Virus record (IMG/VR): IMGVR_UViG_3300027301_000003
Coordinates: 1-64,000 of that record
DNA: 64,000 nucleotides
Source: a virus
Direction: 5' to 3' (one strand)
Part shown: piece by piece, positions 2,720 through 24,986 of the stretch
How positions within the stretch are numbered: position 1 is the first letter of the stretch
How the letters are laid out: every line of letters begins with the position of its first letter
The notes under the pieces: model-generated
What the model saw: only the letters and a program-made list of their open reading frames with translations
Databases searched by the model: none
Told to the model about the DNA's origin: nothing
Program-made: the position numbers and the translations under genes

Positions 2720-2961
2720 GAATTTAGAGTTTGAGCCTCTGTTACAAATTCTTCTTCTACCAGAAAAGTACTACCAACTTCCCTTAGCTCTTCACCAATG
2801 TATGTAGGCAAATCACTAATGATGCTGTGCTGCACTTTACCACCGTATTTTACACGAGTTTCTTGCACAATGCCAGTTACCCATGCGCTGTCTAGGTATT
2901 TAGCAATGATCCATTGACCTTGGCGATCAAAGTTAGAGCCAGCGTTGTATTTGCATTTCAT
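2710..2961 (-). CDS. Hypothetical protein, 83 aa
   Basis: ATG 2961 (MKCKYNAGSNFDR) has a good CTGGAGAACATC ribosome site, so I prefer it to starts further upstream. The first half suggests a small beta-barrel (WIIAKYLDSAWVTGIVQETRVKYGG) and the C-terminal third is acidic. No family is recognised. Confidence 0.65.
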   Translation of the reverse strand: MKCKYNAGSNFDRQGQWIIAKYLDSAWVTGIVQETRVKYGGKVQHSIISDLPTYIGEELREVGSTFLVEEEFVTEAQTLNSVL

Positions 2962-2986
2962 GATGTTCTCCAGAAGTTGAGCTTTA

Positions 2987-2997
2987 ATTATATCACA
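2987..2997 (-). promoter_or_regulatory. Extended -10 promoter TGTGATATAAT
   Basis: Minus-strand TGTGA-TATAAT lying 26 bases upstream of the 2710-2961 start and overlapping the end of the preceding gene. Same pattern as at 2709. Confidence 0.6.
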
Positions 2998-3280
2998 GCT
3001 TTTCGTACTCTGCGTACCAATTTTCCATAAAATCACTGCAGATATAATCCACAACTGTTTCATCATCTTCAAGACCGTAAGGGATAATCTGTGCCCATCC
3101 GATGCGTTCACCACCAACAGCAAGCCGAATGACTACATTTGCTTCCTCTACGGATTCAATCGCTTCAATGATATTCTGGTACTTTGTACTGTGACTTACC
3201 TGCCACTCTTCACCATCCCATACACTGCAGGTATGACCTTGAGCTAATGCATGTTTGACGAGGTGTTTGTATGCTTTCAT
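2993..3280 (-). CDS. Hypothetical protein, 95 aa
   Basis: The start is ATG 3280 (MKAYKHLVKHALAQG) behind TTGGAGTACATC. The N-terminus followed by CSVWDGEEWQVSHSTKYQNIIEAIESVEEA resembles a common family of small phage proteins of unknown function. The C-terminus is acidic (LEDDETVVDYICSDFMENWYAEYEKL). It has no transmembrane segment. Confidence 0.7.
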   Translation of the reverse strand: MKAYKHLVKHALAQGHTCSVWDGEEWQVSHSTKYQNIIEAIESVEEANVVIRLAVGGERIGWAQIIPYGLEDDETVVDYICSDFMENWYAEYEKL

Positions 3281-11134: not shown

Positions 11135-11702
11135 CAATAACCTTTCTGTGTTGATCTGCTGAGTAAATATCTTCATGTTGCATAAAAGCAACTACTTCGT
11201 CTTCTGTGATGAACTTGTGCTCTCCGTATAGATTATATGCGGAATCTAAGCCTACGTCAAGCATTTTTCCACGATAATCTTTAAAATTACCATGAGAATG
11301 ACCATGTAGATGCCATGAACCATGACTTTGACGATGCCACGATGCAATAGGGAAGTGAAATAGTACTGTAGGAATATCCTGCAGCTTAATTTCCTTGTAA
11401 TCATACCATGCTTGAATCAAGTTATCTTTTACAAGTTGATCTAGGTGCTCTCTACGATCATGATTACCCTTGATGAAAATCTTTTGACCGTTTAGCTGCT
11501 TAGTAAACTTTGCAATATCATCGTAATTTTTAGCAAAGGAATAGTCACCTAATGAGTAAACAACGTCACCTTTAGTGACTTGACTATTCCACAAATGCAC
11601 CAACCATTCATCATGATTTTCTTGAGTTGTATCTACGCTTCTATTTGTAAATTCAACAATTCTTTTGTGTGCCATATGTAGGTCACTCGTAAAAATTCGC
11701 AT
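11121..11702 (-). CDS. Calcineurin-like metallophosphoesterase, 193 aa
   Basis: The metal-ligand motifs of the calcineurin superfamily are all present: SDLHMAHKR (D7, H9), GDVVYSLGDYS, IKGNHDRREH and HLHGHSHG. The start is ATG 11702 (MRIFTSDLH) behind GGAGCAAATT. Such phage enzymes hydrolyse phosphomono- or diesters; the substrate here is unknown. It lies near an RNA ligase and a P-loop kinase, so end-healing of RNA is one possibility. Its 5' end overlaps the HNH endonuclease gene by 20 bases. Confidence 0.9.
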   Translation of the reverse strand: MRIFTSDLHMAHKRIVEFTNRSVDTTQENHDEWLVHLWNSQVTKGDVVYSLGDYSFAKNYDDIAKFTKQLNGQKIFIKGNHDRREHLDQLVKDNLIQAWYDYKEIKLQDIPTVLFHFPIASWHRQSHGSWHLHGHSHGNFKDYRGKMLDVGLDSAYNLYGEHKFITEDEVVAFMQHEDIYSADQHRKVIDAKD

Positions 11703-23596: not shown

Positions 23597-23769
23597 AGTA
23601 CAAATACGAGTATAATAAAGAGTACCAGACGTTACAGCAGTTTGATGCAAACGGTGTGCTACGATCTAGCATGAGTATGCCAAAGAGTGATCTGAACTTG
23701 ATTGCTCAGTTGAACATCAAAGAAAATATTTTGCGAAGTGTTGACTTGGAGTTGAAAACTGATGTATAA
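23593..23769 (+). CDS. Hypothetical protein, 58 aa
   Basis: ATG 23593 overlaps the previous stop. The product is mixed and hydrophilic (KYKYEYNKEYQTLQQFDANG). Its last codons contain the -10 element of the tRNA promoter, so its 3' end is under dual constraint. Confidence 0.6.
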   Translation: MKYKYEYNKEYQTLQQFDANGVLRSSMSMPKSDLNLIAQLNIKENILRSVDLELKTDV

Positions 23770-23770
23770 T
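23741..23770 (+). promoter_or_regulatory. Promoter TTGACT-18-TATAAT for tRNA/structured RNA
   Basis: -35 TTGACT (23741-23746) and perfect -10 TATAAT (23765-23770) with an 18-bp spacer. RNA would start near 23777, five bases before tRNA-Arg, which suggests a dedicated stable-RNA transcript. Confidence 0.8.
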
Positions 23771-23781
23771 TGAGATATCAA

Positions 23782-23856
23782 ACGGCTATAGTATAATGGA
23801 CAATGCAACAGGCTTCTACCCTGTGAATGGTGGTTCGATTCCATCTAGTCGTACCA
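23782..23856 (+). tRNA. tRNA-Arg (UCU)
   Basis: Full cloverleaf: acceptor ACGGCTA/TAGTCGT (one G-U), D stem GTAT/ATGC, anticodon stem ACAGG/CCTGT with loop CTTCTAC (anticodon UCU), T stem GGTGG/CCATC, encoded ACCA end. The UCU anticodon reads AGA/AGG, codons that are rare in many Gram-negative hosts. Confidence 0.95.
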
Positions 23857-24166
23857 AATTTAGTCCCGATCCTCTGCAGAGTTTCAAATCCCTAGAAACA
23901 ATGCACGATGCGAGGTAGGTGAAAGCCCTATCACTAAAATGCAAGTACTGATGGCGTGGTACTGCAGGATTTCCAAGGCCAAAGGGTTGTCGCCCGGATG
24001 TAACAAGACACTATAATACCTATTTAGGGATAGGTGGTTATAGTTCAGTATATTTCAGGTTGGGTAGACGAACGTGGTTTACTATTTGGGGTATCGAATC
24101 GTTCTGTGGTGGAATGAGGGGGCATACCTAAGATACGGAATATACTGAACTATAACTAAGGAGTAA
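23857..24166 (+). ncRNA. Gene-free stretch with a predicted large structured RNA
   Basis: No ORF fits, yet pairing is dense. A long-range stem ATC..CTGCAG/CTGCAG..GAT (about 23871-23880 with 23962-23973) encloses hairpins GTTTC/GAAAC, GGTAGG/CCTATC and AGTAC/GTACT. Then a bulged 13-bp hairpin (24011-24023 with 24030-24043) precedes an 18-bp perfect inverted repeat (24037-24054 with 24139-24156) that encloses ~84 nt. The last two share GTTATAG (24037-24043), so they are mutually exclusive. The 18-bp stem ends two bases before the AAGGAG of the next gene. Either a stable RNA or a regulatory leader. Confidence 0.55.
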
Positions 24167-24167
24167 T

Positions 24168-24986
24168 ATGAAAAACCTACTGATTGGTTCTCGTGCATTA
24201 GAGTACTGGAGTGCAGACTTCAAGTGCAAACCCAATGCTGATTGGGATATTATTAGTTTGCATGGAATTGAAGATGCAACTAAGCGCATTGAATGGCACG
24301 ATTTCAATAAACTAGGTAACTACGATATTGAACGGTATGCTTCTGAGCAGTCTTTTGATATATTAGGTCAGCGTGTGCACATCGTTAATCCAATTGGTCT
24401 TACGATTATCAAACGCAGTCACCTGTGGCGTGATCTAAGCTTTCAAAAGCACATTACGCACTATCATAAGCATCTTGCAAAGTATCGCAGTATGTTTACA
24501 GCATTTGATGAACGTGTTCTGGAAAAGCGCATAGCTTATACAATGGAAGCTTACCCACAAGGTCATCCTAGTTTGAAGAAATCCGTAGAAGACTTCTTTG
24601 ATGACTACGTTGAGAAGAAATACAATCATGATTATTTGCATGAACTTGTTGCATATCACGACAAACCGTTGTATACTCAGCTTCAACGCAATGCAAGTAG
24701 TGCGTGGTGTGACGAAGACTTGTGGGATAAGCTATCAAACGATGATAAAATCAAGTGCGTAGCTGAAGAAGCACAGGTCATTGCAATCGAGCGTTTTCTT
24801 GTACCAAGCAACTGGAACTATGCACCACGACATGCGTACTTAAAAGCACTTGATAAAGTATGCACTACATTGTGCAGTGGTTGGTTTAGAGATTTTGCGA
24901 TAGATAATTATCCTGAAATCTTTAATTTATGTGATACAATGAAGTTTGACAACATCAGAAAGGAACTAGAACATGGCACGAACTAA
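24168..24986 (+). CDS. Predicted nucleotidyltransferase-fold protein, 272 aa
   Basis: The N-terminus reads LIGSRALEYW..KPNADWDIISL, which fits the pol-beta-type nucleotidyltransferase signature GS-x(n)-DxD seen in phage proteins annotated as nucleotidyltransferases. The remainder is helical with HDKPLYTQLQ and EEAQVIAIERFLVP. Catalysis is inferred from a single motif. It lies directly after the structured RNA, whose 18-bp stem abuts its ribosome site, and between two tRNA loci; a tRNA/RNA substrate is worth considering. Confidence 0.65.
   Translation: MKNLLIGSRALEYWSADFKCKPNADWDIISLHGIEDATKRIEWHDFNKLGNYDIERYASEQSFDILGQRVHIVNPIGLTIIKRSHLWRDLSFQKHITHYHKHLAKYRSMFTAFDERVLEKRIAYTMEAYPQGHPSLKKSVEDFFDDYVEKKYNHDYLHELVAYHDKPLYTQLQRNASSAWCDEDLWDKLSNDDKIKCVAEEAQVIAIERFLVPSNWNYAPRHAYLKALDKVCTTLCSGWFRDFAIDNYPEIFNLCDTMKFDNIRKELEHGTN

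Follow-up and report, generated by a model that had tools for sequence, protein, structure and literature searches.

Phage T4 makes two small, stable RNAs, C and D, that are transcribed within its tRNA cluster and whose function is unknown. Processing stems of the rRNA type, which are cut by RNase III, are long and nearly perfect helices that border a stable RNA within a polycistronic transcript. GOLLD and ROOL, found in phages and prophages, are large RNAs with pseudoknots. They are often encoded near tRNA islands and their function is also unknown (PMC12286853).

The RNA described here lies in a 64,000-nt window, positions 1 to 64,000 of the 74.4-kb IMG/VR virus record IMGVR_UViG_3300027301_000003. 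Coordinates without a locus name are those of the window, and the RNA and its flanking promoter and genes are on the plus strand. A sequence-only reading had singled out positions 23857-24166 as a gene-free stretch with dense pairing. This was borne out: stops break up each frame, the longest open stretch is 59 codons, and a coding role was rejected on these grounds. The stretch is predicted to fold at -94.8 kcal/mol (z -2.75), a better fold than that of any of 100 dinucleotide shuffles. It is preceded by tRNA-Arg (TCT; 23782-23856), whose CCA end is 5 nt upstream of a conserved AGTCCCG, and followed by a gene for a DUF7275/DUF7277 protein (24168-24986), which we treat as a neighbor outside the RNA system. 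A sigma-70-type promoter sequence (TTGACT-18-TATAAT, 11 of 12 matches) is present at 23741-23770, just ahead of the tRNA, as had been noted, and a similar promoter precedes tRNA-Arg in homologous loci L005 and L056. The count of promoter-like sites in the region is not above that in shuffled sequences.

The best named relative of the window is Limnohabitans phage DC31, with 88% identity across 83% of the 8 kb surrounding the RNA. DC31 has a long tail and makes clear plaques on freshwater Limnohabitans (PMC12195039). It keeps the same stretch, without annotation there.

We gathered homologues through relatives of the next gene and through two motif scans of IMG/VR, and verified them by alignment or with a covariance model (R1). 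More than 100 IMG/VR phage contigs carry the RNA, as does a single cultured phage, DC31; BLAST with five variants found it in no other isolated phage. Two exact patterns, which divergent copies would escape, gave 0 matches in 84,980 bacterial and archaeal species genomes, and within that scope a bacterial or prophage RNA was rejected. On the window's own record, which is among the sequences used to build the model, R1 scored E 1e-43. Divergent members, in which hairpin P2 is missing and helix P0 is different, still scored E 1e-8 to 1e-20. Exactly one copy was found in 23 of 23 positive records, which led us to reject a mobile repeat; a second, partial copy occurs only in L178. Pattern matches in L039, L062, L070, L090, L097, L187, L189, L191, L199, L204, L206 and L211 were discarded as chance or coding matches.

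The conserved core (P0 to P7; 23862-24044) was defined with R1 and two alignments, A1 (44 members) and A2 (64 members), and is about 180-200 nt in size. In the architecture that these alignments show, P0 surrounds P1, P2 and P3; P4, P7 and P8 follow; and there are three pseudoknots, PK1 to PK3. P0 pairs AGTCC (23862-23866) with GGATT (23967-23971). This is the true closing helix: an enclosing CTGCAG stem, suggested by the sequence-only reading, does not appear in the predicted fold, and homologues do not keep CTGCAG. The supported pairings are instead those of TGCA, 23875-23878 with 23902-23905, inside P1, and 23940-23943 with 23963-23966, in P3. The pairs of P0 take the forms GTCC:GGAT, AGTCC:GGACT, GGCC:GGTT, GGCCC:GGGCT and GAGG:CCTC among homologues, and the best helix reached 4 pairs or more in 90% of native pairs of strands, compared to 50% of swapped ones.

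P1 (23867-23912; helices 1-4 of A1 and 1-3 of A2) is closed by 23867-23871 with 23907-23912 and contains two inner stems defined by the covariation alignments, the TGCA pairing and 23881-23885/23895-23899. Its loop, TCCCTA (23889-23894), is the 5' side of PK1 and pairs with 24025-24029/30 in the loop TTTAGGGA of hairpin P8 (24019-24034). PK1, loop UCCCUA with loop UAGGGA, is 99% paired in A1 and has no covariation because its pairs are nearly invariant. P2 (GGTAGG-TGAAAGC-CCTATC; 23914-23932) has compensatory changes at 23916-23930 and 23917-23929 and a T-loop-like loop, TGNAANN (UGNAANN in RNA). The best covarying pairs include 23942-23964 in P3 (23940-23966) and 23953-23980 in PK2, which joins the P3 loop GGC (23953-23955) to GCC (23978-23980); in A1 the corresponding columns, 134-166, contain GC 30, UA 8, AU 5 and GU 1. 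P4 (GGGT-TGTC-GCCC; 23984-23995) exchanges A-U for G-C at 23986-23993. Its loop GTC (23989-23991) pairs with GAC (24007-24009) to form PK3, which is 100% paired and shows a compensatory change, TCTC with GAGA (CUC:GAG), in two homologues, L028 and L029. P8 has compensatory changes in all five of its pairs. Together with P7, whose 5' arm is strand a (24010-24017), it makes up the bulged hairpin that had been seen in the sequence and is present at 24010-24044. The P7 pair 24011-24043 was the top covarying pair of A1 in a first scan, and was significant under a tree-preserving null. Two unpaired stretches of the core, UUAAAAA and AAGAC, are nearly invariant.

The covariation is decisive for a structured core, as judged from the aligned homologues. 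In A1 (44 distinct sequences), 96.2% of cells were paired, 31 of 46 pairs had double changes, and the covariation score was 0.439. When partners were slid by 1-3 columns, 36.5-38.9% of cells were paired and the score fell to 0.046-0.075. A2, whose 64 sequences were fitted to the model and whose alignment is biased towards the structure, scored 0.556 compared to 0.048-0.110 in the controls. Under the tree-preserving null (our own script, modelled on R-scape), A1 gave 13 significant pairs, 10 of which are within the structure, and A2 gave 12, of which 11 are. The sequence-only reading had proposed a large structured phage RNA. This is strongly supported and withstands two checks that the reading itself had set, as homologues covary strongly and Rfam has no match to the core.

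We found no match in Rfam (release 15) to the core, either of the window or of distant members, even at E values up to 5; the searches gave tRNA, tmRNA and chance matches only. The titles and abstracts listed by searches of an incomplete open-access library gave no description of this RNA. Within the limits of Rfam release 15 and of that incomplete literature, the RNA is filed as a new family, because by covariance model it belongs to neither GOLLD nor ROOL, has no constant target gene and matches no known aptamer. The family extends the short list of tRNA-associated phage RNAs of unknown function, such as GOLLD and ROOL, by one class of structured RNA. Its small size suits in vitro folding and crystallography, and the cultured lytic pair of DC31 and Limnohabitans sp. 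DCL3 (PMC12195039) makes it testable.

Several known classes were considered and rejected. A remnant of a group I intron had been named as a possible outcome of the Rfam scan. There was no Intron_gpI match at E up to 5, the covarying helices are ordered differently, and the RNA interrupts no gene, as the tRNAs upstream of it and the genes or tRNAs downstream are complete. T-box leaders and the self-cleaving ribozyme families of Rfam were rejected for want of a covariance-model match, and known riboswitches because no Rfam riboswitch matched and the 3' neighbors are varied. In L188 and L200, a CUGAUGA .. GAAA ahead of the core looks hammerhead-like by eye; it gave no Rfam match at the gathering score and is not claimed as a hammerhead. 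Like permuted tmRNA (RF04321), the present RNA is phage-encoded, pseudoknotted and placed in tRNA arrays, and one permuted tmRNA shares the L094 array with it. Unlike permuted tmRNA, the core has no tRNA-like domain, no tag reading frame and no match to RF04321. ARAGORN found no tmRNA in the window, and no tmRNA family of Rfam matched the core. The resemblance to T4 RNAs C and D, location in a phage tRNA cluster, is one of description only; BLAST matches of the region to T4-like phages are limited to the tRNA part.

The closest likeness in setting is to GOLLD and ROOL, and the RNA might be a structural or RNP-forming RNA of that kind, acting in trans from tRNA islands with neither catalysis nor cis regulation. 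It shares their genomic niche (PMC12286853), 58 of 63 loci having a tRNA within 4 kb, and like them it has pseudoknots; its single copy also fits. Many GOLLD members exceed 800 nt, the present core is far smaller, and it matches neither the GOLLD nor the ROOL covariance model of Rfam. A homo-oligomeric cage also marks GOLLD and ROOL; nothing in the sequence analysis points to multimers of the present RNA. We consider this explanation decidedly unlikely.

The 3' end of the core is shared between two helices. Strand b (24037-24054) and strand c (24139-24156) form the perfect 18-bp inverted repeat that had been reported, with 84 nt between its arms. The first part of b, b1 (GTTATAGT; 24037-24044), can pair either with strand a, making P7, or with c1 (ACTATAAC; 24149-24156), which competes with a for it. 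The second part, b2 (24045-24054), pairs with c2 and can persist in both states in constrained folds. GTTATAG (24037-24043) is indeed common to both stems, and the claim that they exclude each other is strongly supported by three-way covariation. Across 41 homologues, nearly all positions of b1 have a partner in a as well as in c, and where one strand changes the other two change to match (a-b-c triplets include C-G-C 23, G-C-G 9 and A-U-A 6); the covariation of b with c is partly selected, because c was located through its complementarity to b. A b:c helix of at least 12 bp was found in 61 of 63 homologues and in 34 of 315 shuffled controls. The helix ranges from 14 to 24 bp and is usually just upstream of the next tRNA or gene. 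The b:c hairpin loop (24055-24138) is an exchangeable module: depending on the homologue, it can be very short or about 140 nt long. L015 carries two b:c hairpin modules in tandem near 2760-3000, as if the second one had been gained by recombination.

This layout is like that of riboswitches: the same strand is used in a helix of the conserved core and in a second one next to the following gene, and the two helices exclude each other. The RNA could be a two-state switch in cis, with the core as an aptamer for a metabolite, a tRNA or a protein. Ligand binding would favor a:b1, leaving c1 single-stranded and the Shine-Dalgarno or tRNA 5' end open; without ligand, b:c would block it. The shared switching strand is the textbook arrangement, and as b2:c2 can be kept in both states, only b1 would be exchanged. 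Strand c ends a few nucleotides before the next Shine-Dalgarno or tRNA in many homologues. In the window, as had been noted, the AAGGAG Shine-Dalgarno of the 24168 open reading frame starts about two bases past the 3' arm of the repeat. The sequence-only reading had suggested, as one possibility, a leader controlling this gene.

We found that the neighbors do not support such a leader. Downstream of c is the DUF7275 gene in the window, other genes in L018 and L025, tRNAs or tRNA-like genes in L021, L037, L057 and L068, and a hairpin resembling an intrinsic terminator in L200. Among 12 phage records compared, the DUF7275 gene is present in 4, all from the window's clade; the rest carry the RNA without the gene, and L013 and L027 have the gene without the RNA. 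Because the downstream neighbors vary, and because gene and RNA occur separately, the RNA is not a leader dedicated to a single gene. A switch in cis also has to accommodate b:c loops far longer than usual expression platforms, and two homologues, L058 and L222, that wholly lack strand c. Both still have P7, in an extended form of about 10 bp; a tRNA-Met starts directly after b in L222, and in L058 a degenerate tRNA-like sequence is at the same place. They count as about one case because they are close relatives of each other. With no constant regulated gene, a strand c that two homologues lack and no match to a known aptamer, we regard a cis-acting switch as possible but unlikely. Overall, what the sequence-only reading observed is partly confirmed, and its interpretation is partly supported.

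All 475 tRNAs within 4 kb of the RNA are on the same strand and 0 are on the opposite strand. A tRNA ends no more than 12 nt upstream of the core in 19 of the 63 loci, and a promoter-like site is directly upstream of the core, at 16-19 nt, in L089, L094 and L195. Carriers beyond the window's clade have about six ordinary genes in common with the window's phage (among them ribonucleotide reductase, dCMP deaminase and cell-wall hydrolase), and a protein partner was rejected on this basis. The place of the core among tRNAs, its single copy and its knotted fold suggest an RNA related to translation or to tRNA, rather than a switch for one neighboring gene.

The same arrays repeatedly contain long hairpins that resemble b:c but have no core, and several of these hairpins begin at the CCA of a tRNA. 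These hairpins, and the location between tRNAs, would also fit a mere spacer that serves processing or stability of polycistronic tRNA transcripts and has no function of its own. Three pseudoknots and nearly invariant loops are more than a spacer would need, as is one intact copy per genome kept across phages with few genes in common. We think a spacer very improbable.

The simplest reading, we infer from the homologues without c and from the coreless hairpins, is that b:c serves the array as a processing stem and that P7 belongs to the mature RNA. Based on these comparisons we suggest, with a probability of roughly 45%, that the RNA is a trans-acting phage RNA released from tRNA-array transcripts, and that b:c is a precursor-processing stem that gates P7. 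The RNA would be made as part of a tRNA-array transcript. As long as c is attached, b would be held in the b:c hairpin and the core would be unable to close P7. A putative nuclease would then take off c, either by cutting the long helix in the manner of RNase III or, where a tRNA directly abuts b, as RNase P. Once c is removed, b1 would be free to pair with a, so that P7 closes the 3' end of a stable RNA, which would act in trans during infection. The b:c helix would be like an rRNA processing stem in being long, nearly perfect and at the boundary of an RNA within a longer transcript. Unlike in rRNA, the helix that is putatively cut would compete with a helix of the mature RNA. If this coupling of processing and folding is true, it would be a clear natural case in which a precursor cut passes a strand between helices and closes an RNA core.

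In favor of this model we count the covariation of the core, of P7 and of the three strands, the b:c helices in 61 of 63 homologues, L058 and L222, the terminator-like hairpin of L200, the promoters before the core, the coreless hairpins, the varied neighbors, the single copy and the strand bias of the tRNAs. Against it we count the energetics. When pseudoknots are left out of the constrained folds, the median advantage of b:c over a:b1 is 6.6 kcal/mol, and a switch driven by core folding or by a ligand is possible. The position of c against the Shine-Dalgarno in the window also counts against it, as an effect on translation is plausible too.

The strand exchange might also reflect catalysis. 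Alternative hairpins separate the reaction states of some self-cleaving RNAs, and the core could cleave or ligate near the a/b/c junction, the exchange from a to c separating the states before and after reaction. The knotted core, the nearly invariant unpaired UUAAAAA and AAGAC, and the exchange of strands at one site are what a ribozyme might show. No ribozyme family in Rfam matches, and b and c have no conserved cleavage-site sequence, as their letters change with those of their partners. We find a ribozyme of this kind quite improbable. It seems unlikely, too, that the RNA is a new phage ribozyme, or an RNA of the tRNA or translation machinery, whose active fold would be licensed once a nuclease removes c. 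If that is true, maturation of the RNA would itself be the on-switch of the active fold.

Other structured elements were seen in and around these arrays. One family of long hairpins, at 254-912 of L057, 3018-6103 of L186 and 11253-12511 of L094, has arms that are nearly identical and covary (ACCATATTGAAGCACATT .. AGTGTGTTTCAATATGGT), variable loops and several copies per tRNA array. The permuted tmRNA of L094 (RF04321, 100.7 bits) is at 11320-11589 in the tRNA array, with a long hairpin on each side. Just 3' of c in L068, L089, L094 and L195 is a tRNA-like gene whose anticodon region carries a long insertion. It reads GGATCGG .. CCGATCCACCA in L068 and L094, and in L068 and L089 c overlaps its first acceptor bases. 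L004, L067, L083 and L093 have a second conserved, apparently structured spacer between tRNA-Arg and the RNA (ACCGAAAGGTTGCCAGCCTCGATGCC .. GGATTCGTAAG in L004); L020 has a different one. A phage tRNA with anticodon CTA, called as tRNA-Pyl and possibly an amber suppressor, is at 7370-7446 of L042. Far upstream in the window, positions 1785-1957 hold an array of 16-nt repeats around CTTATATA. The array is strongly AT-rich and self-complementary, and is possibly a replication origin or a regulatory array.
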